This document shows positions 368 to 54,748 of a stretch of DNA of 64,000 bases, piece by piece (the stretch's first letter is position 1; each line of letters begins with the position of its first letter). The notes beneath the pieces are model-generated. The model saw only the letters and a list, made by a program, of their open reading frames with translations. It was not told where the DNA came from and did no database searches. A program made the position numbers and the translations under genes. Source of the DNA: Chondrosia reniformis (taxonomy: Eukaryota; Porifera; Demospongiae; Chondrillida; Chondrillidae); NCBI GenBank assembly GCA_947172415.1, contig OX359193.1, positions 2,040,501 to 2,104,500 on the forward strand, written 5' to 3'.

Positions 368-3300
368 ATGGCCAAATCTTCGAAGCATATTGTGAGCGAT
401 TCTCGCGTAACTCTTTCAATATGTGAAGAAAATGTAACTTCTAAAAGTTATTCAGGAAGTTAGTAAACATTAATCTATTGCGCATGTGTTTATTTTAAGT
501 ATTACTTTGCCTAAACCTCCTCTTGTTCCTGTTATTAGGTTATAATATTATGGGGAGCAGTTCATCCCAGTCAGAATTATCTCAAAATACCAAGTCTTCC
601 CTGGTTGATGATCTGATGTTGGCTGTACACTTGGGAGATGTACAGACTGTTCAAGATGTCCTCCTTGAAGGGCTGGATGATGTAGACCAGTTCGATGAGC
701 TGGGCTACTCTGCTCTACATTATGCTGTGTGCTATAACCACATATCTCTTGTATTGTTGCTACTTAAGAATGGAGCTAGTGCCAATCTAGGCACATTAGA
801 CAAGTGTACAGTGGCTGGCGTGACTCCAATACACATTGCTACCATATTAGGTCGTGCATATTGTCTGACTGTCCTAGCTAGGTCTGGTGGTAATGTGAGT
901 GCAATGGACAGCTGTGGTCTTACTCCACTCCACTACTGTGTAGATAGTGGTGATGCTGAGATAGCAAAGTGTCTGATAGCACTTGGGGCTGATGACACTG
1001 TGTGTGGTGATAATGGTTCAGCCCTACACCACGCAGGGGGGGCAGGGAACATGGTCATGATTGATTTATTAGTACAAGCTGGGTGTCCACCTGATCTCCA
1101 GGACAGTGAGGGACTGACACCAGCTGAGTGGGCCAGGAGGAAAGGCATGGATGGAGCAGTGTTTTACCTAGAAGAGTTACAGTCTATACATCTAGAGAGA
1201 TGGGAAAATAGAGGAGGTATGTTTGTAAGATATTGAATTGTATTTAGTATTTACATAATGACATTCTACCTTTATTATTCATGTAGTTGATGAAACTCCA
1301 TTTGATGCTGTTAATCAAGGAGATTTGTCTACACTGAGGGCATTACTGAAAGATGAAAGTCTTTCTTTGACCAATGAAGATGGCAAAATAATGCTGTATA
1401 ATGCTGCTATGTTTGGTCACTACAGGATATGTAGTTTCCTACTAAAAAATGGGTGTACTGTAAATAGCAGAGGTACAAATGCATTGCATGCTGCTGCAAT
1501 GAGCGGTGATATTAGAATCATCCACTTACTTTTTGAACATGGTTTAGATGTTAATGCAGTAGATAATGTTGGAGTTACACCACTTCACCTTGCCTCAAGG
1601 ACTGGAAAAACAAATGCTGCTGTTAAGTTCCTTATATTAGGTTCTAATAAAGCTGTAGTGGCTGGTAGTTATGGCACTCCACTACATCAAGCCTCCATTG
1701 GAGGTCATTTTGATACAGTATTAGCATTATTAGGTGAAGGTTGTTCAACAGATGTGCTATGTAGTGATGGTGGTAGTGTCCTTCATTTTGCTGCTAAAGG
1801 AGGCAATGTTGATATCATTAAATACTTGAGTGAGAATGGTTTAGATGTCAATGCAGTAGATAATGATGGTAAGACACCACTTCACTGTGCTTCAATGGCT
1901 GGTAAAACGAATGCTGCCATTGAGCTCCTTGGTTTAGGTGCTAATAAAGCTATAGTGGCTGGTAGTTATGGCACTCCACTTCATCAAGCCTCCATTAGGG
2001 GCCATTTTGATACAGTATTGGCATTATTAGGTGAAGGTTGTTCAACAGATGTGCTATGTAGTAATGGTCGTAGTGTCCTTCATTTTGCTGCTGAAGGAGG
2101 CAATGTTGATATCATTAAATGCTTTAGTGAGAATGGTTTAGATGTTAATGCAGTAGATAATGATGGTGAGACACCACTTCACTGTGCTTCATTGGCTGGT
2201 AAAACAAGTGCTGCCATTGAGCTCCTTGGTTTAGGTGCTAATAAAGCTGTAGTGGCTGGTAGGCATGGCACTCCACTTCATCAAGCCTCCATTGGAGGCC
2301 ATTTTGATACAGTATTAGCATTATTAGGTGGAGGTTGTTCAACAGATGTGCTATGTAGTAATGGTCGTAGTGTCCTTCATTTTGCTGCTAAAGGAGGCAA
2401 TGTTGATATCATTAAATGCTTTAGTGAGAATGGTTTAGATGTTAATGCAGTAGATAATGATGGAGTGACACCACTTCACCGTGCTTCAATGGCTGGTAAA
2501 ACAAGTGCTACCATTGAGCTCCTTGGTTTAGGTGCTAATAAAGCTGTAGTGGCTGGTAGGCATGGCACTTCACTACATCAAGCCTCCATCGGAGGCCATT
2601 TTGACACAGTATTGGCATTATTAGGTAAAGGTTGTTCAACAGATGTGCTCTGTAGTAATGGTGGTAGTGTCCTTCATTTTGCTGCTGTAGGAGGCAATGT
2701 TGATATCATTAAATGCTTTAGTGAGAATGGTTTAGATGTTAATGCAGTAGATAATGATGGAGAGACACCACTTCACTGTGCTTCATTGGCTGGTAAAACA
2801 AGTGCTGCCATTAAGCTCCTTGATTTAGGTGCTAATAAAGCTGTAGTGGCTGGTAGGCATGGCACTCCACTTCATCAAGCCTCCATTGGAGGTCATTTTG
2901 ATACAGTATTGGCATTATTAGGTGAAGGTTGTTCAACAGATGTGCTATGTAGTAATGGTCGTAGTGTCCTTCATTTTGCTGCTAAAGGAGGCAATGTTGA
3001 TACCATTAAATGCTTTAGTGAGAATGGTTTAGATGTTAATGCAGTAGATAATGATGGAGTGACACCACTTCACCGTGCTTCATTGGCTGGTAAAACAAGT
3101 GCTGCCATTGAGCTCCTTAGATTAGGTGCTAATAAAGCTGTAGTGGCTGGTAGGCATGGCACTCCACTTCATCAAGCCTCCATTGGAGGCCATTTTGATA
3201 CAGTATTAGCATTATTAGGTAAAGGTTGTTCAACAGATGTGCTATGTAGTAATGGTCGTAGTGTCCTTCATTTTGCTGCTAAAGGAGGCAATGTTGATAT

Positions 3301-6300
3301 CATTAAATGCTTTAGTGAGAATGGTTTAGATGTCAATGCAGTAGATAATACGGGACTGACACCACTTCACCGTGCTTCATGGGCTGGTAAAACAAGTGCT
3401 ACCATTGAGCTCCTTGGTTTAGGTGCTAATAAAGCTGTAGTGGCTGGTAGTTATGGCACTCCACTTCATCAAGCCTCCATTGGAGGCCATTTTGATACAG
3501 TATTGGCATTATTAGGTAAAGGTTGTTCAACTGATGTGCTATGTAGTAATGGTCGTAGTGTCCTTCATTTTGCTGCTGAAGGAGGCAATGTTGATATCAT
3601 TAAATGCTTTAGTGAGAATGGTTTAGATGTTAATGCAGTAGATAATGATGGAGTGACATCACTTCACCGTGCTTCCTGGGCTGGTAAAACAAATGCTGCC
3701 ATTGAGCTCCTTAGATTAGGTGCTAATAAAGCTGTAGTGGCTGGTAGTTATGGCACTCCACTTCATGAAGCCTCCATCGGAGGCCATTTTGATACAGTAT
3801 TAGCATTATTAGGTGAAGGTTGTCCAACAGATGTGCTATGTAGTAATGGTGGTAGTGTCCTTCATTTTGCTGCTGAAGGAGGCAATGTTGATATCATTAA
3901 ATGCTTTAGTGAGAATGGTTTAGATGTTAATGCAGTAGATAATACTGGACAGACACCACTTCACCGTGCTTCATGGGCTGGTAAAACAAGTGCTGCCATT
4001 GAGCTCCTTGGTTTAATTGCTAATAAAGCTGTAGTGGCTGGTAGTTATGGCACTCCACTTCATCAAGCCTCCATTGGAGGCCATTTTGATACAGTATTAG
4101 CATTATTAGGTGAAGGTTGTTCAACAGATGTGCTATGTAGTAATGGTCGTAGTGTCCTTCATTTTGCTGCTGTAGGAGGCAATGTTGATATCATTAAATG
4201 CTTTAGTGAGAATGGTTTAGATGTCAATGCAGTAGATAATACTGGACAGACACCACTTCACCTTGCTTCATTGGCTGGTAAAACAAATGCTGCCGTTAAG
4301 CTCCTTATATTAGGTGCTAATAAAGCTGTAGTGGCTGGTAGGCATGGCACTCCACTTCATCAAGCCTCCATTGGAGGCCATTTTGATACAGTATTGGCAT
4401 TATTAGGTGAAGGTTGTTCAACTGATGTGCTATGTAGTAATGGTGGTAGTGTCCTTCATTTTGCTGCTGAAGGAGGCAATGTTGATATCATTAAATGCTT
4501 TAGTGAGAATGGTTTAGATGTTAATGCAGTAGATGATACTGGACAGACACCACTTCACCTTGCTTCATTGGCTGGTAAAACGAGTGCTGCCATTGAGCTC
4601 CTTAGATTAGGTGCTAATTTGAAAGCATATAGTGCTGTCTTTGGCATTCCACTACATGTGGCTTGTTTATCTGACGAGTTTGAAATAGTTGAACTACTTT
4701 TAGAAGAAGGCTCCTCACTTGATGTTCTTGATAATAATGGTGATAGTGTGCTGCATTATGCTTCAGCAGGAAGAAATATAGCCATTATGGAGGTCATTTT
4801 AAGACACATAATGGAAAGACTAAAATATGTACTTGAAGGGGGTGGTCTCAATGTTTCCAATAGTTTTGGTCAAACTCCACTGACCTATGTTGTACTTTAT
4901 GGTAGTAATAAAATGGCTGAATTGTTGATTGATTATGGTGCTGATGTTAATGTAAGGGATAATGTTGGTACTACTATACCTGAGTATGCTCTGATAAATC
5001 CAAAGTTTGATCTTGACCAATTTCGAAAGAAATTGGATTTCTCCAATAATCAAACAACAGCAGCTGTACTTTCTAGTTCATCCATGGTATCATATTCATC
5101 CATTTGCGGAAATGTCAAAAGTTTTACAAAGTGTATCAACCAAGTAGATCTACCACTTCCAAAAGTGTGCCTCTCTCTTGCGGTGAATGTTCACCGATGG
5201 TATTATCCTAGTTTGTTAAAGTGGAAACAGAATAGCCTATCCACAGCCATTCCTGGAAAATGTCCATTGAATGCTCTTCAGATATCTCTACTTAGCATCT
5301 TTCTAGACTCCGATATAGTAGACTACAGCTATAGAGACTTTGTATTTCAGTTACTGTCTCATTCCAAGCTACATTACATGATCAATGAGCACCTTCCTAA
5401 TGGTCTCACTGCACTGGATTTAGCAAGACAATTTAAACTCCCTGACATTGCTGCTGCAATTGAAGAGAAAGGTGGTGAACTAGGTATTTGGGCAAACATA
5501 CCCCGAGAGGATTGGATAACACTGACGCCTTGCTTACCTCATTTCATAGAAGCTCATGAAGGGTTAATGAAACTGGCTAAAAGCAGTTTGATGGGTAAAA
5601 TGGCACTTCGTCACATTCATAGGTTAGTGTTTCAGAAAGAGCTTGGCTATCCAAATGAAGTGGAGATGGAAAAGCAACAATTGCTTGGAGAGGCACTGAA
5701 TACTAAACCATCCATGATGAAGATTGCTAAATTAGTTACTCCAATGGTTAATAAGGATACTTTTGAGTCATGGATGGAGATTGCTTATGCATTGGGTATT
5801 GATGAGGATAGCATTGATAGCCTGTTATCCTCTAATCTGATATCCAAGCAGTCATTCATTAAACTACTGAATACCTGGATAAAGGAAGGTAGGCAGGTGA
5901 CATGGTCAGTTCTTTTAGATGTTTTGGGAAGTTATGAAACTCAAAATTGCATTTCAGAAATTAAGGAAGCTATCCTAAAGGAATATTTTGCTTGCCACCC
6001 AAAGAGCATTAATATGCAGGTACATAAATGTGTGTGTACATACAAATTTTATACAAACCTTGCATATGTTCATATGTACATGCGTACTTACGTATATGTA
6101 ATATTAACTGTTACAGTACTTTTTGGGTTGGTTGTCCAGACTGGACATTGCAATCGTTAATTGTAAAAGACTATCGCCAAATGCATGGTGAAGTCAGTGG
6201 GAACGTTTTTTCAAATGGTAGTTGCGAGTTACCAATTGCAATGTCCGGTCTGGACAACCGACCAAAAAGTACTGTATATGCAAAGAATGATTCCTTATGT

Positions 6301-7799: not shown

Positions 7800-10262
7800 C
7801 TCACTCTCTCAAGAAGTCACTTGTTACTCGCAGAAAGTCACTTCAGTCACCGAAAAATCACCTCTCCCTCTCAGGAAGCTGCTTCATTCACAAGGAGTCA
7901 CCTCTCTCTCTCAAGAAGCTTCTTCACTCTCTCATGGAGTCTCCCCTCCCTCTCTGGCAAGAAGTTGCTTCACTCTCAAGGAGACACCTATTCCTCTCAA
8001 GAAGTTGCTTCACTCTTTCATGGAGTCACCTCTCCCTCTAAGGAAGTCACCTCATTCTCTGAAGGAGTCACCTCTCCCTCTCAAGAAGCTTCTTCATTCT
8101 CTCAAGGAGTCGCTCCTCCCTCTCAAGAAGCTGCTTCACTCTCTAAGAGTCACCTCTCCCTCTCAGGAAGTTGCTTCACTCTCAAGGAGTCACCTCTCTC
8201 TCTCAAGAAGCTTCTTCACTATCTCATGGAGTCACCCCTCCCTCTTAGAAAGTCACTTCATTCTCCCACGGAGTCACCCTTCCCTCTCAAAAAGCTGCTT
8301 CACTCTCAAGGAGTCACTCCTCCCTCTCAAGAAGTTGCTTCACTCTCGAAGAGTCACCCATTCCTCTCAAGAAGCTGCTTCATTCACAAGGAGTCACCTC
8401 TCTCTCTCAAGAAGCTTCTTCACTCTCTCATGGAGTCTCCCCTCCCTCTCTGGCAAGAAGTTGCTTCACTCTCTCAAGGAGTCACTCCTCCCTCTCAGGA
8501 AGTTGCTTCACTCTCAAGGAGTCACCTATTCCTCTCAAGAAGTTGCTTCACTCTTTCATGGAGTCACCTCTCCCTCTAGGGAAGTCACTTCATTCTCTGA
8601 AGGAGTCACCTCTCCCTCTCAAGAAGCTTCTTCATTCTCTCAAGGAGTCGCTCCTCCCTCTCAAGAAGCTGCTTCACTCTCTAGGAGTCACCTCTCCCTC
8701 TCAGGAAGTTGCTTCACTCTCAAGGAGTCACCTCTCCCTCTCAGGAAGTTGCTTCACTCTCTCAAGGAGTCACTCCTCCCTCTCAGGAAGTTGCTTCACT
8801 CTCAAGGAGTCACCTATTCCTCTCAAGAAGTTGCTTCACTCTCTCATGGTGTCACCTCTCCCTCTCAGAAAGTCACTTCATTCTCCCACGGAGTCACCCT
8901 TCCCTCTCAAGAAGCTGCTTCACTCTCAAGGAGTCACTCCTTCCTCTCAGGAAGTTGCTTCACTCTCGAAGAGTCACCCATCCCTCTCAAGAAGCTGCTT
9001 CATTCACAAGGAGTCACCTCTCTCTCTCAAGAAGCTTCTTCACTCTCTCATGGAGTCTCCCCTCCCTCTCTGGCAAGAAGTTGCTTCACTCTCTCAAGGA
9101 GTCACTCCTCCCTCTCAGGAAGTTGCTTCACTCTCAAGGAGACACCTATTCCTCTCAAGAAGTTGCTTCACTCTTTCATGGAGTCACCTCTCCCTTTCAA
9201 GAAGCTTCTTCATTCTCTCAAGGAGTCGCTCCTCCCTCTCAAGAAGCTGGTTCACTCTCTAGGAGTCACCTCTCCCTCTCATGAAGTTGCTTCACTCTCA
9301 AGGAGTAACCCCTCCCTCTCAGGAAGTTGCTTCACTCTCTCAAGGAGTCACTCCTCCCTCTCAGGAAGTTGCTTCACTCTCAAGGAGTCACCTATTCCTC
9401 TCAAGAAGCTTCTTCACTCTCTTATGGAGTCACCTCTCCCTCTCAGAAAGTCACTTCATTCTCCCACTGAGTCACCCTTCCCTCTCAAGAAGCTGCTTCA
9501 CTCTCAAGGAGTCACCTCTCCCTCTCAAGGAGTCACTTTCCCCTCTCAGGAAGTCGCTTCACTCTCTCAAGGAGTCACCTCTCCTTTAGGAAGTTGCTTC
9601 TATCTCTCAAAGAGTCACCTCTCCCTCTCAGGTAGTCACCCCCGGGAGTCCCCTTTCTCCTTCAGGAAGTCCTTCACTCTCAAGGAGTCAACTCTCCCTC
9701 TTAAGAAGCTGCTTCACTCTCTCAAGGTGTCACTTTTCCCTCTCAGGAAGTCCTTCACACTCTCAAGGAGTCACCTCTCCTTCAGAAAGCTACTTCTATC
9801 TCCCAAGGAGTCACCTCTCCCTCTCAGGAAGTCACTTCCCCCCTCCACCCCGTGGGAGTCGCCTTTCCCCTTCAGGAAGTCCTTCACACTCAAGGAGTCA
9901 ACTCTCCCCAATAAGAAGCTGCTTCACTCTCTCAAGGAGTCACCTCTCCCTCTCAGGAAGTCACTTCATTCTCTGAAGGAGTCACCTCTCCTTCTTAAGA
10001 AGCTGCTTCCCTCTTTCACGGAGTCACCTCTCCCCTTCAGAAATTTGCTTCACTCTCTTAAGGAGTCACCTCTCCCTTTCGGGAAGTCCTTCACTCTCTC
10101 AAGGAGTCACCTCTCCCTTTCGGGAAGTCCTTCACTCTCTCAAGGAGTCACCTCTCCCTTCAACGAAGCTGCTCATTCTCTCCAAGAGTCACAGCTTCCT
10201 CTCAACAAGCTGCTTTACTCTCTCAAGGAGTCACTCATCCCTCTCAGGAAGTCACTTCATTC
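7800..10262. repeat. 2.4-kb minisatellite, unit about 42 bp
   Basis: The basic unit is AAGGAGTCACCTCTCCCTCT followed by CAGGAAGTTGCTTCACTCTC, with 36-42 bp variants. Segments recur as higher-order blocks: one marked stretch starts at 7891, 8387 and 9007. The units lack stop codons in all three plus-strand frames, so long open frames (up to about 800 codons from 8005) arise automatically, and frames switch wherever a unit loses bases. I found no splice sites, start context or domain supporting a protein. The array is pyrimidine-rich on the plus strand. Confidence 0.9.
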
Positions 10263-12414
10263 TCAACATGTGGAGCACCTTATCTTATTCAACATTTATG
10301 ATCCAGTAGCAAGGTTTGTTAGTTGTGTAACTATCTGGCCTCCCTATATAAATATTGCAACTATACATACTTTTTTTCACTTCTTAGTGCATACGTGTGC
10401 ATGTTATGTGATAAATTGTATTTAAGAAATTCACTACCCATTCTGTTTTGTTGTTGTTTAAATGTTATACTTTAATACAAACACATTAGACTGGAGGAAG
10501 TGTGTCCTGCATCAATCAGCTACTGATAGGACTTGTGAGCTACACTGAAGGAACATTGGAGAAGGACAAAGGAGCTAATGAAGGCTTGTGACCTAATGAT
10601 GTAAAGGCACTGTATGGACTGTATTTACAGTAGTTATCTTACATAGTATTATCAGACAACTTGAGAACTGTTTCTGTATACATTAACACCCATACCCGTT
10701 TCAGATAATGTACATTGCCTGTAGAGAAAATGTTTTCAGTTTTGGAGTATTGGTTTATGTATGTGTGTTAACATGCCTACTTAGTATAGCCTGCTGTATT
10801 GTTATTATCTCTTAACATTAGCCTTATACATATTTTCCTTTTTTTCAAATAATTGTAGCCTTATTTCATTAATTTTCAAATAAATGTCTTCAATTAAGTG
10901 CATGGTCCTGTTTTTTACAGTATTTAAAGAAAATTACAAAAAATGTCTACTTCAAGTCACTACATATATAACAATATGAAAGGGAAGTTATGATGACACA
11001 GGATGAAGGGCTTTACATACATGTGCATTTGTAGTGGAGGAGGTAAATTTAGAGGCCAATGATGATGAAACTCAAAGCTTTAATAAGATCAGCTTTAGAT
11101 CTTAGAGTCCCTCTTATTTTTCATTAAATTTCAATATTCCTTTTATTATGTAATCATGTTTCTCTTTTTCCATTTACTGTAACTAGCAGCATTCACTCTT
11201 CCTCATTATTGATTACCAAATTTAAAGTTATTGACAGCTCAATTTATATATATATAGAACTGTAACCATCTACAGATCCATTTACTGTAACTAGCAAGCT
11301 ACAGATCTATGAGTAAAGCTATAGCCATGGATCTACTATAATAATCCCAGGTATACGTCCATGTGCACTTGGAAAGGTCAAAGGTTATAGAATCTAGCTA
11401 ATATTCACAGAGGTCATAGTGGTAAGTTTAATGATATTTGAAAGTAATTATTTAAACGTAGGAAATATATACTCAAGACTGGTACATACCTGTATATGTA
11501 TATAAGTAGGGTATAATTTATGTAAATATAACTAGCTATATAGATCTAGAAACTCTAGAAGGTTTGGTATATCATTGTTGTATGTGTCATAATACAGTGG
11601 CACTAGTCTACACAGGTATACGTACTGTAGGTTGCATCTACTGAAGAGTTACTGGTGTCGTTTAACAATCTTTTACAACACCACAAAGTTTAGAGGTTTA
11701 ATGTCAAAGTTTTTCTAATTAGAAGGTTAAAGTTTAAGAATTTGAGTTGTTTGATCATGCCATATATATGCATAGTACACATTTTCATATGATATCTACA
11801 GTACTATAGTACTGCCTTTAATTTTTCTATATAACTAAATTAATATTCCTGCAGTTCCTCCACTTTACTTTACTAAGAAGTATATATATAGAAGCACTTT
11901 CTTCACCTGTTGCAGGAACCCTAAGCTTATATATATTGGTTACAGTATAACTCTAGAGCCGTATAAACACATGCATACATATACTGGACCTGTTGGGGAA
12001 ATGCTACATTGCATGTGTAAGCATCCTTTAATAACTCTGTAATGACCGAGATCCCTTTCAAACTATAGTTAAATTCTCAGTTTCATAAACCTACACTTTA
12101 ATAAAGATGCTCACAGAATTTGTTTAGTCATCGCCTGTAGATGATCATAGCTATTTAAATATACTATATTCTTTACACATAGATAACTATATGTCTTACA
12201 TCAGTTCAACTTAACAATTGTCCATCAAATTGCTCAATAAATTAAAACATTTCATACGTATGTTTGCAACAAGTGTATATATATTGGAGTTTATTAAAAG
12301 TGTGAAACAAAAATAAAAGAGCAAAAACAGCACAATCTCCCGACCATATTCTACTTAATGTAGTCCTGCAGAAACAGAAATGTGATAAGAATGTAGATCA
12401 GGTTCAAAGAGGAC
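10263..12414. other. Intergenic, no gene seen
   Basis: The sequence is AT-rich with many short TATATA runs. An AATAAA near 10880 could end a transcript, and 10487-10620 could be a non-coding or short coding terminal exon of the upstream gene. No protein signature was recognised. Confidence 0.4.
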
Positions 12415-38344: not shown

Positions 38345-38768
38345 ATGCTCCTATATACTCCTCCTGCTCCAATTGAAGTGAATCCTCCTCCTCTGCTGCA
38401 ATTGCAGTGAATCCTCCTCCTCCTGCTGCTACAATTGAAGTGAATCCTCCTCCTCTGCTACAATTGAAGTAAATCCTCCTCCGGCTGCTCCCACTGTAGT
38501 CCCTACTCCTCTGCCTGTTCCCACTGTAGTCCATCCTCCTCCGGCTGCTCCCACTGTAGTCCATCCTCCTCCGGCTGCTCCCACTGTAGTCCCTACTCCT
38601 CTGCCTGTTCCCACTGTAGTCCATCCTCCTCCGGCTGCTCCCACTGTAGTCCCTACTCCTCTGCCTGTTCCCACTGTAGTCCATCCTCCTCCGGCTGCTC
38701 CCACTGTAGTCCATCCTCTTCCGGCTGCTCCCACTATAGTCCATCCTCCTCCGGCTGCACCCACTGTA
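38345..38768. repeat. 30-bp minisatellite, left half
   Basis: The array begins with several AATTGAAGTGAATCCTCCTC units and continues with units such as CGGCTGCTCCCACTGTAGTC plus CATCCTCCTC. It stops at CCCACTGTA where the element at 38769 begins. The same array resumes in the same orientation and phase at 43984. Confidence 0.9.
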
Positions 38769-38939
38769 CGGTACAGTTCATAAAAAAGGTAACGTTGATA
38801 ACTTTTAACATTTAACCATTAGAGGTTACCGATTCACAGTTATATGGTATCAATTAACTGCTAACGGTTAACTTAATTACACATCAAAAGGTGTAGATAA
38901 CTTGTGTATGCCCAGCGAATAAAGTGTGAAATCTGATAC

Positions 38940-40168
38940 TTGTTGAATAACGATGGATCTGTCCGATATGACGGCAAAGACTTTTTAGAACCGTTAAAGA
39001 AGATAAGAAGAGAGAAAGGAGCAAAAGGACGATTGATTGCAGGGGAAAAGGTCACAATCAAAACAAAGACAAGGATATGGAATGCCATAATTGTAAGTCC
39101 CCAACCTAAAGATCCTGAGCCTGCTAAGAAGAGACGGAAGATAAAGAATCGCCGCAATGGAGAAGAAGAAAGACTTTTATCAATTGTTGCCTCGTATACA
39201 CCTGGAAATTCGACAAATTTAGCTTACCAGGAAGCGCTTCCTACAGTCTGTAATGAGGGAACTCCAGCTGTTGTTGAAGAAGGCTTATGTGAAGCCATTG
39301 AGAAGAGTGTACCTACTGTTTTTCAAGGAGAATCTACAGCTATTGAAACCGAGGAGACAATTGCTGATATTCAAGAAACCCCCATTAAAGCTGTTGAGAA
39401 GAACAACCCTACTATTACTCAAGGAAAATCTACAGTTGTAGAAGCTGAGAGTACACCTACTGTTGACCAAGAAGGTATTCCTGCAACCTCTGCAATTTCC
39501 CAGCAACTCTTCATACAGGATACTAGTGGCACGCCATCACAATCAGTTACTGATTTTACTGCTAGGGATTACTACTTTGATGATTTAACCAACTTCCCAT
39601 TGGATCCAGGGTATACGCAGGAGGTCCTCAATAGCCATGAACTAAGTCAACTAAGAGAGAAAATTGAAGAAATTGAAAAAAACAAGCACAATTTCAATTA
39701 GACATTTTTGAAAGGATTGAGAGGTTGGAGCGATTTGCAAGAGAAAGAATAACTACACCAGTAGCAAGAATGTCATCTACCGTGACACCAAGAAGGCCGC
39801 TAACTGAAAGAAATCAAAGACTGATTGTCCATTGTGGCTCTGAGAATGATAGGGCTATGTCTGTCCAGGAGACCATTGCCTGTAAAAGCTTCTCCTCAGG
39901 ACAACAAATGGCAATGGCTTTAGTTAACGTTCTTTTTACTGAGCAGGAGTTGGCTTCTTGTACTCTAACAGGACGAACAATTCATGGACAAGCTCGAGTT
40001 GCATTAGATGGGTCCAGACTACAGTTGATAGAGAGCCTGATGCAGCAAAAGTTTCAAATGTCTGAAGGTGAACTTGCTGCTGCTAGAAGCACATTCAGGC
40101 AAGCACCGGCCAACCGATGCAAATATCTGAGGCTAAAGCTGGCCCCACATGATCAAACTCTTCTTTAA
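38940..40168 (+). pseudogene. BEN-domain protein ORF inside the TIR element
   Basis: The first part (to 39701) encodes a Lys-rich stretch with KVTIKTKTRIWNAIIVS, which resembles a small Tudor-like domain, then a repetitive acidic linker and a coiled coil (LREKIEEIEKN). A one-base shift near 39690-39705 separates it from the second part (39725-40168), whose coiled coil continues as FERIERLERFARER. The second part holds a BEN-like domain (MALVNVLFTEQELASCTLTG then RVALDGSRLQLI). BEN domains bind DNA or chromatin proteins. No ATG opens the first frame after the stop at 38934, so the start may be lost or in an upstream exon. The frameshift suggests decay. Confidence 0.65.
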
Positions 40169-40289
40169 CTTAACATTACAGTAACTGCTTAGTTTCTTTT
40201 AGATACCTTTTAATATTATTTTTATGTATATATTATATATATGTATATATATATATATATATATATTATATTAATGTTGCGATTAGTTT

Positions 40290-43200
40290 AAAAACAAAAA
40301 ATGTCCGCCGCTGGCAGTAGTCAGTAGTAGCCAATATTTGCCAGTTTTGATTGCCAATTTGATCGGACTAGTCTTCATCATAGCCTCATTTGAGTCTCTG
40401 AGCCATCCCAGCTTGATTGGTACCAACAGAAGATGAACAAGGAGCCTGCGTGCACAGCATCCTCGGAATGCAGCTTCACTGGTGAGCATGCAGTCAACCG
40501 GGCGCTCTGTAAGATATGTCACCGCCCGATGCCCCTGAGAAGGGACGGCGCCATACGTGTGCACGGCCCAGTTGGTGAGCGATGCCCGGGATCGGGCGTT
40601 GCACCGCTTCCTTGTGATGTCCCTTCTGCCGAAACTCCTCAACAAACTGTCAGACAAGCGTCCACAGAGGACCTCTCCATACTCCCACATGTGAGGATCT
40701 TGAAGAGGCTTCCACGTGCCTCACGAGTCCAATCAGCAAGGAAGCTGGCCACCATCCTAGACGAGGTTACAGTTGCCAACAGTTTCAACAGCTGGATGCG
40801 CCTCTTAAAGTTCCCCAGGCGCTGTCTCTGTGTCCCTATTAGAGGGGGTCAACGCTGGAATCTGGTTAAACATGTCAACCACCAGTTGGCTGAGGAGAGT
40901 GATCCTCTCCCCACTGCTCCCTGGGCCGTAGGAAGGCCAACCACTCCACCCCAAAGTCCCAGGACCCACTGCAGTTGTTGGCCAAAAGAGTATCAGAGAT
41001 GTTGGAGGAGGGAGATTTCAGGGGAGCTGTACGCCTAACGTGCTCAGAGGATTCCATTGCGAATAACAGTGAAGACACCATAGCTGCTTTGAGATCTAAG
41101 CATCCACCTCCCCATCCGCAATCCACTCCGTCTGAGGCACCTAGCAGAAGTGCAATGACAATTAATGAAGTAGATGTGATGCAGGCGATACGATCTTTCC
41201 CCAAAGGCTCAGCAGGTGGCCCCGATGGCCTCCGACCACAACATCTTCAGGACATGGTCGGGACATCGGCGGGTGCTGAGGGCATCTTGCTACTGCAATC
41301 TCTCACTGCTTTCACCAACCTTGTGCTTACAGGAGACATCCCTGCTGAGATACGGCCCTTCTTCTGTGGGGCTTCCCTCACAGCACTTAATAAGAAGGAT
41401 GGAGGGGTAAGACCCATTGCGGTGGGTTGTACCCTTCGGCGTCTTGTAGCAAAGGTGGCCAGCAGGTCTGTCATGGAGAGAATGGTCTAGTACCTATCAC
41501 CCTTACAACTTGGGTATGGCACCCCCCTCGGTGCGGAGGCAGCAGTCCACGCGTCTAGATTATATCTGCTTCTACTGCCACCTGATCATGTCTTTTTGAA
41601 ACTTGATTTTAGGAATGCCTTTAATACAATCAGAAGAGATAAAATTTTATTAGCCGCTAGAGACATGGTACCTGAAATTTTCCCCTTCATTTTTGCATGC
41701 TATTCTGCACCCTCAACCCTATTCTTCCGAGACACCACCACACTGTCTGCTGAGGGTGTTCAGCAAGGGGACCCCTTGGGCCCTTTACTGTTCAGTCTCG
41801 TGATCCACCCATTAATACTTCAGTTGAGGTCAGAGCTTCGCATCTTTTACCTGGATGATGGCACTTTGGGAGGCCCTGAAGAGGAGGTCTTACGAGACTT
41901 TCAGTTCATTGAACGTGAAGCGGAATATCTGGGCCTTAACCTGAACCGAAGCAAGACAGAACTAATTTGTGCAGAACAAGCTGGCAGGAAGATCCTGGAT
42001 ACTGCCCCTACCCTGTGCAAAGTCCCCCTTGAACAGGCTGTCATCCTGAGATCACCCATTGGCCAGAGAGACTCAAGTGATACCTCCCTTGCCGACAAGA
42101 CACAGGCCTTAAAGACCATGGGAGCAAGGTTGAGCCACTTTTCCAAACATGATGCCATCACCCTGTTGCGCTATTCCATAGCCATCCCAAAGGTACTGTA
42201 CCTGCTAAGGACTGCGCCATGTTTCCAGTCTCCGCTTCTCAAGTCCTTTGACCTAGAGCTTCGCTCTTGTCTCAGTGCCATCCTCAATGTTGATCTGGTC
42301 GACAATTCAGCATGGACCCAGGCAACCTTACCCATTGGGTTTGGAGGTATTGGGGTCCGCAAGACATCACAGCTTGCACCGTCTGCCTTCCTGGCTTCTG
42401 CTGCTGGTTGTGTGAGCCTCACTGAATAGATCCTGCCACCTAGGCTGCATGGCGTCTCCCACCCAGCAGCTGAGGAGGCTCTACAGGAGTGGAGAATGGG
42501 TCACAGTCATCAGACTCCAGTCTCCCCTGGAAAAATTCACCAAAGATCTTGGGACCAGCCACGTGTCCAAGCTACCCTTGATGGTCTCCTTGATACCACC
42601 ACTGACCCCAAAGACCGAGCAAGGCTCTTGGCAGCCTCCACAAAGGAGTCAGGTGCTTGGCTGAATGCCCAACCATCACATCCCTGGGTTTACGCATGGA
42701 TGACGAGGTGGTACGTATAGCTGTTGGGCTTCGCCTGGGTGTTCCACTGTGCCACCCACACACATGCTGCCATTGTGGTACCCTTGTGGACAAACAGGCC
42801 ACCCACGGTCTCAGCTGCCACAAAAGCGAGGGTCGCCATTCCCGTAATGCAGCTTTTAACGACATCATTAAGCGCTCCTTGGCAGCGGCACAGATTCCAT
42901 CAATGTTGGAGCCTACAGGGCTTTGCAGATCAGATGGCAAGAGACCCGATGGGGTTACAATCATCCCCTGGAAGTCAGGCCGCACCCTCATCTGGGATGC
43001 TACATGTACCGATACCTTTGCTGCATCGCATCTGGACCGGGCTGCAAGGGAGGCAGGGGCTATTGCAGCATTGGCGGAGCAAAGAAAGAAAGCAAAGTAC
43101 CTTGACTTAGCCCAGACGCACCACTTTGTTGCAGTTGTTGTGGAGACGGCTGGTGCCATGGGTAGTGATGCCCTGGACTTTTTCGCTGACATTGGCAGCC

Positions 43201-43420
43201 GAGTCAGAGCAGTCACTAATGAAGCACAATCACGGGCCTTCATTCTGCAGCAGGTGTCTGTGGCCCTTCAGCGAGGCAATGCTGCCTCAGTCCTGGGGAC
43301 CTTCGGGTGACCTTATTATTATCTTTATGATTGATAATTGAACTGGAAAAAAAATTATTATGTATATATTATTTATTTGTCCTAAACAATAAACAATATT
43401 ACTTATTGATTGCATTGTAA
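40290..43420 (+). mobile_element. Non-LTR retrotransposon with C-terminal RLE nuclease, decayed
   Basis: An N-terminal zinc finger (CKICHRPM...HGPVGERCPGSG) starts near 40433. The reverse transcriptase follows with GSAGGPDGLRPQHL, GGVRPIAVG, LDFRNAFN, GVQQGDPLGPLLFSL and the active site FYLDDG. The last part (42657-43310) has a zinc-finger-like CHHCG...HGLSC, then KRPDG, WDATC and K..Y, which fits the restriction-like endonuclease of R2-type elements. The frame is broken by a shift near 40930-40975, TAG stops at 41488-41490 and 42427-42429, and a shift near 42670. The GC content is clearly higher than in the surrounding DNA. It lies inside the TIR element, just downstream of the BEN ORF. Boundaries are approximate. 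Confidence 0.85.
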
Positions 43421-43983
43421 ACGTTACTTTTATGTTATATTGTATTTTGATTTTCTGAGATTAGTTTGCTCTTTCTTATTTGTTGTAATATTATATTATA
43501 ATATATGTATGTATAAAAATAACTTTAAATTTATTATAATAATAAAATAAATTAAGTAATAATTATGAAATAAAAACATAATATCAAATCCTTCTTTGGT
43601 AATAAAGCTGGATGATCCTCAACTTGCAGTAATCCGTTAATACCATTTTCAATAAAAGCAACAAAAGTTTATCAATTCGAATACACCGCTATGACACACC
43701 TAATCTCGTTTAAATAAACATCTCCCGAATATCTCGTGCGTATACTAATAATATCCTCATTATACGTCTGTATATCATAGTGTATACTGACCATCTCATA
43801 TGTTTTTAATATCTTCCTATTACGTAAACGATTGACAGCTCGAGGTGTCCATTTACAAAGCTATAACTTTTGACGATTTTTGGTTAACAGTTAACTATTA
43901 CCAGTTAACTATTTCAGTTAACTTTTAACCTCTAGCGGTTATCTTTTAATCGGTTACCATTACCTTTTTTATGCACTGTACCG

Positions 43984-44682
43984 TAGTCCCTACTCCAATT
44001 GAAGTGAATCCTCCTCCTCCTCCTCCTACTCCAATTGAAGTGAATCCTCCTCCTCCTCCTGCTCCAATTGAAGTGAATCCTCCTCTGGTTGCTCCTGCTG
44101 TAGTCCATCCTCCGTCAGCTGCTCCCGCTGTAGTCCATCCTCCGTCAACTGCTCCCACTGTAGTCCATCCTCCGTCAACTGCTCCCACTGTAGTCCATCT
44201 TCGTCTGGCTGCTCCCACTGTAGTCCATCCTCCGTCAGCTGCTCCCACTGTAGTCCATCCTCTGTCTGCTCCCACTGTAGTCCATCCTCTGACTGCTCCC
44301 ACTGTAGTCCATCCTCTGACTGCTCCCACAGTAGTCCATCCTCTGTCTGCTCCCACTGTAGTCCATCCTCTGTCTGCTCCCACTGTAGTCCATCCTCCTC
44401 TGACTGCTCCCACTGTAGTCCATCCTCTGTCTGCTCCCACTGTAGTCCATCCTACTCTGGCTGCTCCCACAGTAGTCCATCCTACTCTGGCTGCTCCCAC
44501 TGTAGTCCATCCTACTCTGGCTGCTCCCACTGTAGTCCATCCTACTCTGGCTGCTCCCACTGTAGTCCATCCTACTCTGGCTGCTCCCACTGTAGTCCAT
44601 CCTACTCTGGCTGCTCCCACTGTAGTCCATCCTACTCTGGCTGCTCCCACAGTAGTCCATCCTCTGTCAGCTTCCCCAGTTG
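43984..44682. repeat. 30-bp minisatellite, right half
   Basis: Units of CATCCTACTCTGGCTGCTCC plus CACTGTAGTC are repeated about 20 times after three AATTGAAGTGAATCC units. This continues the array at 38345-38768 in the same orientation. Open frames on both strands across it are by-products of the 30-bp period. Confidence 0.9.
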
Positions 44683-53776: not shown

Positions 53777-54748
53777 GGGGCTTGGGAGGGATCAGTATAG
53801 TGTGAAGGATGAATTATGGGTTGATATATTGGTGGAAGTGGAGCTATTGGGTGATGGTAGGTCGATGAATGTGGTGTAGTAAGGAGTGGTGGTGAGATGG
53901 TGGAGGAAGACAGTCTGAAGGTGAATGAACGTCTTGGGGTTGCCGAAAGTGACTCTGTTGGGATGTGAGGAGAGACTAACGTGGAGGAAAGGGCAGGGTG
54001 TGTATTGGGTGAATATGTTGGGGTGATGGGTGAAACTGAGATAGAGGAAGCAGAGAGTAGTGAGGATGAGTGTGAGGAACAGCAGCGAACAGGGGACAGA
54101 TTGGTCAGAGCCACTGTAGTAGAAGGCTGACTGGTGTTGCTGATTGTCCCTAATGGGGCTCTCACTGGACTACCTACTCCCAGCCATTTCTGTGAAAACA
54201 AAACAATAATAATCATTTATAAATTTGATGAATTGATAGATGCATGTAGGTTTGATTGACTCACTTGCTTAGATTTTCGAGTCGCAGTATCTGCTTTTTT
54301 AGTGATCTACAGTGGGAATTAAGCATACACAAAAGAATAATAACCATACGAGTGGCCTATTATTGATTGGTTACTCTAGATGCACGTAGGGTGTATGACT
54401 CACTTGCTTAGATTTGCGCGTCACTTTTGCCTTTTTAATGACCTACGATATGGATATTAAGTGCAGCATAATCAAATTCGTAAGTGGCTTACAACTTATT
54501 TTAATTTCAAGAAAATTTACATTCTCTTTTGCAGGGCTCTTCCTGCTTTTCCTCTTGCCAGGCTTCCAAGAAAGCAAGTCTAAAACTTTAGCGCTGTAAA
54601 TTTTGTTGCCAAATTTCACTTTGACGATTGCCCCCACTGAGATATCTTCCACACCAGGCTCTAATACGTGTTTTATATTCACTTTATTGATGTTTTCTTG
54701 GTCGTGTGACTCGAGCCACTCCACGGAGATTAAATTTTTCGCTGCCAT
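53777..54748 (-). CDS. Truncated gene with BEN-family-like N-terminus
   Basis: Exons on the minus strand are 54748-54521, 54442-54404, 54306-54265 and from 54189 down to the piggyBac junction. The first encodes ISVEWLESHD and VGAIVKVKFGNKIYSAKVLD, a Tudor-like fold comparable with the N-terminal part of the BEN ORF at 38940. Exons 2 and 3 are tandem duplicates (KVTRKSKQ and TATRKSKQ), basic and nuclear-localisation-like. Exon 4 encodes a Ser/Thr/Pro-rich linker. The open frame runs on into antisense piggyBac sequence, so the original 3' part, where a BEN domain might have been, is missing here. The gene could be a remnant or could splice over the insertion. Confidence 0.55.

Follow-up and report, generated by a model that had tools for sequence, protein, structure and literature searches.

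Evidence for a two-gene Tc1/mariner lineage carrying a BEN-domain gene in the sponge Chondrosia reniformis

Results

Structure of the element and its target site

The analyzed window, a 64,000-nucleotide stretch of the Chondrosia reniformis genome, contains an element at positions 38769–43983 that has imperfect terminal inverted repeats (TIRs) and is flanked on both sides by a duplicated TA dinucleotide (38767–38768 and 43984–43985). The left TIR (38769–38792, plus strand) reads CGGTACAGTTCATAAAAAAGGTAA and the right TIR (43960–43983, minus strand) reads CGGTACAGTGCATAAAAAAGGTAA; the TIR pattern occurs twice in the window and in none of 100 shuffles, and with up to three mismatches it is found at 50 places in the genome, both window ends counted. 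The target is a minisatellite with a 30-bp unit, which Tandem Repeats Finder detects to the left (38415–38768) and to the right (44048–44664) of the insertion. When the flanks are joined with one TA removed, the resulting sequence is CCCACTGTAGTCCCTACTCC, which is also found at three other sites of the array (38490, 38580 and 38640). The original prediction of a TIR element that splits a minisatellite at TA is therefore borne out in its ends, its target duplication and the rebuilt repeat unit.

Next to the left TIR lies a subterminal region with GGTTA/GTTAAC repeats (38793–38880, plus strand), followed on the same strand by the BEN gene in two parts. The N-terminal part (38937–39701), comprising the N-terminal domain and a linker, is delineated by the open reading frame and by alignment to the related element L031, whereas the C-terminal part (39677–40168) is in a different frame and has a Pfam BEN match at approximately 39908–40060. 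The match (E 1.3e-4, 22.5 bits) is slightly below the 23.2-bit cut-off, and the ORF (loci L003/L052) scores 123 bits with a BEN profile built in this work, which includes the 94%-identical L031. The predicted BEN domain is thus confirmed, in a gene that is broken: L031 has the same TIRs and is 94% identical across the shared 5′ part, and relative to it the start region of the window gene is gone in a 31-bp deletion and the remainder is split over two frames.

Approximately 3.2 kb of the 5.2-kb element is occupied by a nested, broken non-LTR retrotransposon (40298–43511, plus strand) that is foreign to the BEN element and, according to the alignment to L031, is bordered by a diverged 11-bp duplication on the left (40287–40297) and an 11-bp duplication on the right (43512–43522). 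Its reverse transcriptase frame (41491–42429, plus strand) matches RVT_1 with an E of 5.3e-15. The insert is missing in L031 and matches 134 stretches of the genome, its own copy included, and the reverse transcriptase was accordingly rejected as a part of the BEN element. Among solved structures its closest sequences are R2 retrotransposon proteins, with a weak E of 3e-5; this copy sits in the AT-rich DNA of the BEN element, outside rDNA, and the C-terminal ORF, where a restriction-like endonuclease was looked for, has no Pfam match.

On the minus strand, alignment to L031 identifies the first approximately 33 residues of a Tc1 transposase (43591–43688), and a right subterminal region with GTTAAC repeats (43880–43959) precedes the right TIR. 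The rest of the transposase has been removed by a 964-bp deletion (L031 positions 2275–3238), the two sides of which overlap by 5 bases. The absence of a recognizable transposase in the original prediction does not hold, given this remnant and the DD34E transposase of L031; the copy looked transposase-free because the gene was lost by deletion. Judged from its sequence, the window element is a dead, non-autonomous Tc1/mariner (DD34E) copy.

Full-length relatives and pairing of the two genes

In two full-length relatives, L031 and L032, a DD34E transposase is encoded on one strand and a BEN gene on the other. The L031 transposase matches DDE_3 (E 3.1e-23) and HTH_Tnp_Tc3_2 (E 2.3e-11), and the DD34E spacing is present in 12 of 12 transposases measured, that of the window copy not being intact. 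Both genes, in some cases in broken form, are present at each of the 11 coding loci retrieved with a paired TIR; at 6 of 17 coding loci a TIR pair was not found. In elements of the L067 or L074 type both ORFs are open. The TA duplication is seen in the window and in the TIR-paired copies, with one end being degenerate in L062. No BEN was found in the other TIR-bearing stretches retrieved (L033–L050), and what is left of the transposase there amounts to 23 residues in each of L033, L042 and L050. According to the original prediction, the BEN ORF would be accidental cargo if full-length relatives encoded a standard transposase but lacked BEN; the full-length relatives found carry both genes.

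Genome-wide, 70 of 105 BEN loci lie within 1.6 kb of an opposite-strand Tc1 transposase, where 0.3 would be expected. Conversely, a BEN partner is found within 4 kb for 25 of the 27 long stop-free transposase matches listed, that is, those with at least 270 aligned residues among the 117 scored of 327 first-look candidates, and no BEN partner was found for the other two (C4:2227474 and C4:3020447). The pairing count kept only matches overlapping the BEN part of the query; with fewer BEN queries 10 of 26 long transposases were without BEN, and with wider queries 2 of 27, among the matches listed. A transposase within 4 kb is missing for 22 of the 105 BEN loci, including the window copy, and a BEN gene within 4 kb is missing for 61 of 142 transposase loci, the unpaired loci probably being due to decay or missed matches. 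Full elements between TACGGTAC-type TIRs hold, almost certainly, a Tc1 transposase and an opposite-strand BEN gene and constitute a two-gene Tc1 lineage. In this one genome, the BEN-bearing Tc1 elements represent a deep lineage rather than a single family.

Domains and evolution of the BEN protein

In the predicted BEN protein, an N-terminal domain is joined by a linker to a C-terminal BEN domain. The linker looks coiled-coil-like or low-complexity by eye, and the N-terminal domain, which has no Pfam match above the cut-off, is found at other places in the genome as well. PF10523 scores above the 23.2-bit cut-off at 16 genome places and, among the individual elements, in L031, L062, L063, L074, L075 and L078; it is below the cut-off in L032, L069 and L079 (12.2, 16.0 and 14.4 bits, respectively) and gives no match in L064, L067, L068 and L070, where BEN is backed only by the profiles built here. 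A profile of clades A and C/D recovers all five clade-B BEN domains with E of 2e-4 to 0.02 among 11,981 ORFs, and L078 and L079 score 56 and 43 bits with a nine-sequence BEN profile that does not contain them. At E 0.5, the profile of clade A alone misses clade B and that of clade B alone misses clade C/D. Clade B has a putative GT-AG intron. Domain-only hhalign comparisons give an E of 3e-4 for clades A and C, and 0.05 and 0.09 for A–B and B–C, respectively, versus 0.4–0.6 for reversed controls. Whole-protein BEN alignments gave nothing useful in hhalign, sequence-profile searches of the PDB with both BEN alignments found no BEN chain, and a single-sequence AlphaFold model of the window BEN part, with a pLDDT of 49, was too poor for use.

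The distances among the BEN proteins follow those among the transposases (Mantel r 0.887; 0 of 10,000 permutations), with the fragments L061, L065, L066 and L072, the later fetched L079 and the partial stretches L076–L078 omitted from the test. The dN/dS of the BEN C-terminal half is 0.23–0.32 in the three comparisons between L031 and other subfamilies, and that of the transposase is 0.05–0.07 with dS near saturation, BEN being the faster-evolving of the two; saturated pairs were given no ratio, and the piece-versus-piece comparison of L061 is meaningless. For the close pair L062–L032 the values are 1.02 for the BEN N-terminal half, 0.33 for the C-terminal half and 0.66 for the transposase, and constraint there is not clear. 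In the clade A elements L031 and L062 the transposase ORF is stop-free and the BEN genes contain stops or frameshifts, and because they are broken beside open transposase ORFs, the requirement for BEN in cis may be weaker.

Subterminal repeats

The two window ends together contain five GTTAAC motifs, compared to a mean of 0.26 and a maximum of 2 in 200 shuffles. The repeats at the element ends are family-specific and often palindromic, GTTAAC being that of the window family. Eight of 12 elements, which are not all independent, repeat one palindromic 6-mer at their ends to an extent reached in at most 1 of 300 shuffles, and in L064, L068, L074 and L079 a repeated palindrome is not significant (300 shuffles each). 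Both genes begin just inside the TIRs in the convergent families, which would place the repeats at promoters. In family D, represented by one element, the genes point outwards from the middle, so its ends are not expected to be promoters; GAATTC is found there in CGGAATTCCG-type sites, two per end, one within the TIR and one beyond. Of the short derivatives, the approximately 580-bp MITEs retain L031 positions 1–350 and 2707–2929, and a 160-bp copy retains two GTTAAC motifs. As originally suggested, the subterminal repeats could be protein-binding sites, for which they are good candidates.

Discussion

Relation to known transposons and BEN proteins

The best solved match of the transposase is Sleeping Beauty SB100X (E 5.6e-26), and the DD34E signature, DDE_3, the Tc3-type HTH, the TA duplication and the TIRs are all shared with the Tc1 group to which Sleeping Beauty belongs. 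Animal Tc1 elements typically have one gene, whereas the sponge lineage also conserves BEN and has subterminal repeats that are dense and specific to each family. PIF/Harbinger, En/Spm (CACTA) and MuDR are likewise two-gene transposons, in which the transposase is accompanied by a second protein that binds DNA or acts as a helper, and often by subterminal repeats; these, however, belong to other transposase superfamilies, their partners are Myb-like, TnpA and MURB proteins, and their target duplications are different. PIF/Harbinger elements have a Harbinger-type DDE nuclease and a 3-bp TWA duplication, whereas here the transposase is of the DDE_3 Tc1 type and the duplication is TA, and membership in that group was rejected.

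Extra ORFs beside the DDE ORF are also present in the ciliate Tc1/mariner elements Tec, TBE and Paramecium ITm. In the available parts of the reports, one extra ORF is conserved in all Paramecium Tc1/mariner elements, and the ciliate extra ORFs comprise a tyrosine or site-specific recombinase, a zinc-finger protein and ORFs of unassigned function (PMC7325037, PMC5405496). The whole word BEN does not occur in the text of PMC7325037, and in the accessible portions of the ciliate-element literature no extra Tc1/mariner ORF described as BEN was found. Full-text literature searches joining BEN with transposon terms, with Repbase outside their coverage, likewise returned no BEN-bearing transposon, and the two-gene BEN Tc1/mariner lineage is apparently undescribed. 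An undescribed transposon group had originally been considered; the elements belong to a known superfamily, Tc1/mariner (DD34E), within which the BEN-carrying lineage is undescribed as far as searched.

Animal and DNA-virus BEN proteins (Insv, Elba1/2, the BEND family and polydnavirus proteins) have the C-terminal BEN domain in common with the sponge proteins, but those described in the consulted parts of the literature are cellular or viral genes, whereas the sponge BEN genes sit within transposons. Transposase relatives outside the genome, with 22–43% identity, comprise 80 of 85 confirmed IMG/VR loci that were kept and 11 GTDB loci; the nine-sequence BEN profile gave no match with E ≤ 1 at any of those 91 loci. 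One ORF of a viral contig gave an E of 0.25 with another BEN profile.

Possible roles of the BEN protein

The organization of the elements suggests, with reasonable probability, that in these two-gene Tc1 elements BEN serves the transposase as a DNA-binding partner at the subterminal repeats. The transposase would cut and paste at TA, as its family, the TA duplications and the multi-copy MITEs imply, while the BEN protein most likely binds the family-specific repeats, probably as a dimer, and could help to pair or expose the element ends. Binding to these candidate sites is itself fairly probable. BEN domains are described as sequence-specific DNA binders, with Insv a homodimer (PMC5043383, PMC3510454); Elba2, in turn, is reported to be broadly spread on chromatin and not at specific sites (PMC5043383), which counts against this reading. 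That the main job of the protein is to aid transposition rather than to regulate it is plausible, at somewhat under an even chance, and a helper role is made less likely by half of the family-D end repeats lying within the TIR.

The BEN protein might instead be a regulator of the element itself that, bound to the subterminal repeats, would repress or restrict the expression of the transposase. This is a real, if lesser, possibility, as the convergent families have these repeats at the 5′ end of each gene and BEN proteins are described as repressors and chromatin factors (PMC3510454, PMC5043383). Against it stand the one family-D element, which has end repeats, half of them within the TIR, with genes that diverge from the middle, and the L031 positions and GTTAAC motifs retained in the MITEs and in the 160-bp copy, respectively. 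It is rather unlikely that BEN is an anti-silencing or chromatin-opening factor that acts at the element's own ends and shields it from host silencing; an action of BEN proteins on chromatin (PMC5043383) would agree with such a role, and the N-terminal domain, present also elsewhere in the genome, could be a chromatin-reading module, although it lacks a Pfam match above the cut-off.

The broken BEN ORFs of the sampled clade-A copies would be compatible with passenger cargo acquired by one family, but BEN occurs across no fewer than five divergent families, its distances match those of the transposase, and it is under purifying selection between subfamilies, which makes this reading very improbable and largely refutes it in the C. 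reniformis genome. The pairing of 25 of the 27 listed long transposases and the Mantel r of 0.89 support the claim that the BEN gene is not accidental cargo. Finally, the lack of an intact transposase in the window copy could point to a separate group in which the BEN protein itself is the transposase; this is refuted by L031, in which the same TIRs enclose a DD34E transposase whose first residues are retained in the window copy, leaving the idea with a negligible probability. A transposon group without any transposase is likewise rejected by L031.

Implications

Tc1/mariner elements are the standard one-gene, self-sufficient transposons and a source of widely used gene-transfer tools. A more far-reaching and rather speculative proposal is that the sponge elements represent an obligate two-protein branch of animal Tc1/mariner, in which BEN reads palindromic subterminal repeats that change together with the BEN domain, and that animal BEN transcription and insulator proteins and viral BEN proteins descend from such transposon genes. 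A second gene for a protein of DNA-binding type, kept across an entire animal lineage, would indicate that partner proteins arose in Tc1/mariner outside ciliates too, akin to those of Harbinger, CACTA and Mu-like elements, and would offer a testable source for BEN domains. Up to 25 matched loci of protein and site, some of them nearly identical, could serve for working out BEN recognition. BEN genes predicted in genomes of this kind may belong to transposons, which calls for caution in their annotation. A candidate lone BEN gene is located at C3:8964468 in the C. reniformis genome.

Structure of the window copy and transposase of its relatives

The element at 38769-43983 has the structure originally predicted: it is bounded on both sides by imperfect TIRs, it is flanked by the TA duplication, and the unit of the minisatellite that it splits is rebuilt once 38769-43983 is taken out. 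The accompanying claim that no recognisable transposase is present does not hold for its relatives. In the host assembly (117,379,552 bases, 15 contigs), where the window lies on chromosome 5 of Chondrosia reniformis odChoReni1.1, the TIR pattern with up to 3 mismatches was found at 50 places, the window's two counted, and its reversed control at 0. The full-length 2929-bp relative L031 carries its BEN gene on the plus strand and, opposite to it on the minus strand, a gene for a transposase of 346 aa. The transposase contains DDE_3 (E 3.1e-23) and Tc3-type HTH (E 2.3e-11) domains, and its best match among solved structures is Sleeping Beauty (E 5.6e-26). The same layout is found in L032, a full-length copy of a second subfamily, and the D-34-E spacing is present in all 12 transposases measured. 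At least 125 matches were obtained with the L031 transposase as query, with 117 of 327 candidates scored.

The window copy is 94% identical to L031 across the shared 5′ part and lacks L031 positions 2275-3238 (964 bp), with approximately the first 33 residues of the transposase remaining at 43591-43688. It also contains a nested 3.2-kb element (40298-43511) with a diverged 11-bp duplication, a broken non-LTR retrotransposon with a reverse transcriptase nearest to R2 proteins among solved structures; 134 stretches match this family genome-wide, its own copy counted, some with open frames of about 1000 codons.

Extent of the lineage

Judged from sequence, the pairing of a BEN gene with a Tc1 transposase defines a lineage of more than one family. 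Ten stretches found with the L031 BEN query merged into eight loci. In six of these the gene is convergent with a transposase; the remaining two are L065, a remnant, and the copy in the window. More distant transposases, about 46% identical, are each joined by a separate second ORF whose C-terminal domain is BEN-like (L067-L070), and those at still greater distance are likewise accompanied by a second BEN-like ORF (L074, L073/L075 and L079). Seventeen coding loci were retrieved together with the sequence on both sides; a TIR pair was detectable in 11, and all 11 contain both genes, some of them broken. No TIR pair was found at the other six, of which L061, L070 and L071 carry the two genes on opposite strands, L072 carries a BEN match on the strand of its transposase, L065 has BEN only and L066 has transposase pieces only.

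The association is also evident genome-wide. Of the 16 matches over the Pfam BEN cut-off, 13 are convergent with a Tc1 transposase less than 300 bp apart, and three are divergent at 1.0, 2.3 and 3.6 kb. Pooled BEN queries gave at least 105 loci, with a transposase up to 1.6 kb away in 55 convergent and 15 divergent cases, an opposite-strand transposase beyond 1.6 and up to 4 kb in eight, a same-strand transposase in five and none found within 4 kb in 22; random placement would give 0.3 loci with an opposite-strand transposase within 1.6 kb. Conversely, when the 27 long transposase matches without stops are taken as the starting point, a BEN partner lies up to 4 kb away in 25 cases, 18 of them convergent and 7 divergent. 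The 142 transposase loci left after merging include many fragments, and 61 of them lack a BEN partner up to that distance. All these counts are lower bounds, as only the best candidates were scored, for example 150 of 253 in one search. The divergent gene order is a second stable layout. In one family, represented by L073 and L075 (C12:2328402-2331760), both genes point outwards, and the layout was also seen at six other long stop-free transposase loci.

Identity of the second ORFs

The Pfam BEN cut-off is passed by six proteins from clades A, C and D of the two-gene lineage. L069 of clade B stays under it at 16.0 bits, L079 scores 14.4 bits, and the profile gave no match for clade B members L067, L068 and L070, nor for L064. 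A profile built from clades A and C/D found all five clade B domains (E 1.8e-4 to 0.02 among 11,981 ORFs). A nine-sequence profile recovered L078, L064 and L079, loci outside its training set, at 56, 47 and 43 bits, with no match at E ≤ 1 in 91 viral and prokaryotic loci. Single-clade profiles were weak, as A alone misses clade B and B alone misses C/D at a limit of E 0.5, and a profile of A and B found C/D members only at E 0.004-0.06, with one viral-contig ORF at 0.25. Domain-only hhalign comparison gave 3e-4 for A-C, 0.05 for A-B and 0.09 for B-C, with reversed controls at 0.4-0.6; of these, the value is good for A-C alone.

The second ORFs of the families also appear to have an N-terminal domain in common, with a weak tie to clade A (best E 0.001). 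The domain of L068 matches L067, L069 and L070 (E 5e-11 to 1e-9), in each of which a likely GT-AG intron comes after the domain; the N-terminal sequences of L074 and L078 match one another (E 2e-12), and in L075 and L079 the domain is putatively assigned by eye alone. Matches to this domain were also seen at approximately 54542-54742 (minus strand) of the window and at many places on contigs C7 and C2, beside which the same search gave no BEN match. A separate BEN-domain match at C3:8964468-8964794 (minus strand) falls in an open frame of 454 codons. No Tc1 transposase was detected up to 4 kb from this match, a candidate host or domesticated BEN gene.

Co-evolution and selection

BEN and transposase distances among 12 paired elements are correlated, with a Mantel r of 0.887 that none of 10,000 permutations reached, and clade structure is behind much of this correlation, with clades A, B and C+D splitting alike in both trees. 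Between subfamilies, where synonymous sites are near saturation, dN/dS is 0.23-0.32 for the BEN C-half (L031 against L062, L063 and L032) and 0.05-0.07 for the transposase (the four pairs among L031, L062, L063 and L032 yielding a ratio), which places BEN under purifying selection that is weaker than on the transposase. In the close pair L062-L032 the values are 0.33 for the BEN C-half, 1.02 for the BEN N-half and 0.66 for the transposase, and the BEN C-half of the window copy and L031 gives 1.4 with few changes. The sampled clade A BEN genes are broken, each by different mutations; long open frames for both genes are found in L067, L068, L069, L070 and L074.

Subterminal repeats and possible role of the BEN protein

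The ends of clade A elements, except L064, contain 5-8 GTTAAC motifs versus 0.2-0.5 in shuffles, and the middle 0-1. The end repeats are of the CCGTA/CGTACG type in clade B, CACTCG in L079 and CGGAATTCCG in family D. Eight of 12 elements, five of the eight from clade A and related, repeat one palindromic 6-mer so often that no more than 1 of 300 shuffles reaches the count; this is not the case in L064, L068, L074 and L079. The ends of 11 elements together hold 114 palindromic 6-mers versus 82 on average and at most 105 in shuffles, and the top 6-mer of any kind is not unusual in L062 and L074 (43 and 71 of 300 shuffles).

In the working that we propose, the transposase would act on the TIRs at TA, and the BEN protein probably binds, as a dimer, the candidate repeat sites just inside the TIRs. 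BEN domains are described as sequence-specific, dimeric binders in parts of PMC5043383 and PMC3510454, the former also placing Elba2 broadly over chromatin. Self-regulation of the element by BEN via the end repeats fits the convergent families equally well, since there the end repeats double as promoters of both genes. In family D, where both genes run outwards from the middle of the element and promoters do not lie at the ends, GAATTC nonetheless occurs in one element twice per end, once within the TIR and once beyond. This one element tilts the reading mildly towards a role of BEN in transposition.

Extra ORFs in ciliate Tc1/mariner elements are mentioned in passages of PMC7325037 and PMC5405496, and lateral transfers in Lepidoptera in those of PMC4190172 and PMC5704228, the former linking BEN genes to polydnaviruses. 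Among the papers that full-text searches joining BEN with transposon terms brought up, none was recognised as describing a transposon-borne BEN gene; earlier notice elsewhere, for example in Repbase entries, is possible.

Non-autonomous copies and other repeats of the window

MITEs of about 580 bp retain L031 positions 1-350 and 2707-2929, and two GTTAAC are still present in a 160-bp copy. Three MITE copies (L036, L037 and L038 at C7:502486, 528384 and 591404) have identical 12-bp flanks, and because these are common to all three, they are probably a segmental duplication of one insertion and not three insertions. The window also contains a 297-bp unit repeated 10.4 times in tandem (1539-4618), ankyrin-repeat-like by eye, and a minisatellite with a 42-bp unit (7858-10264). 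The 30-bp minisatellite at 38415-38768 and 44048-44664 has open frames with PPPAAPTVVH-type repeats.
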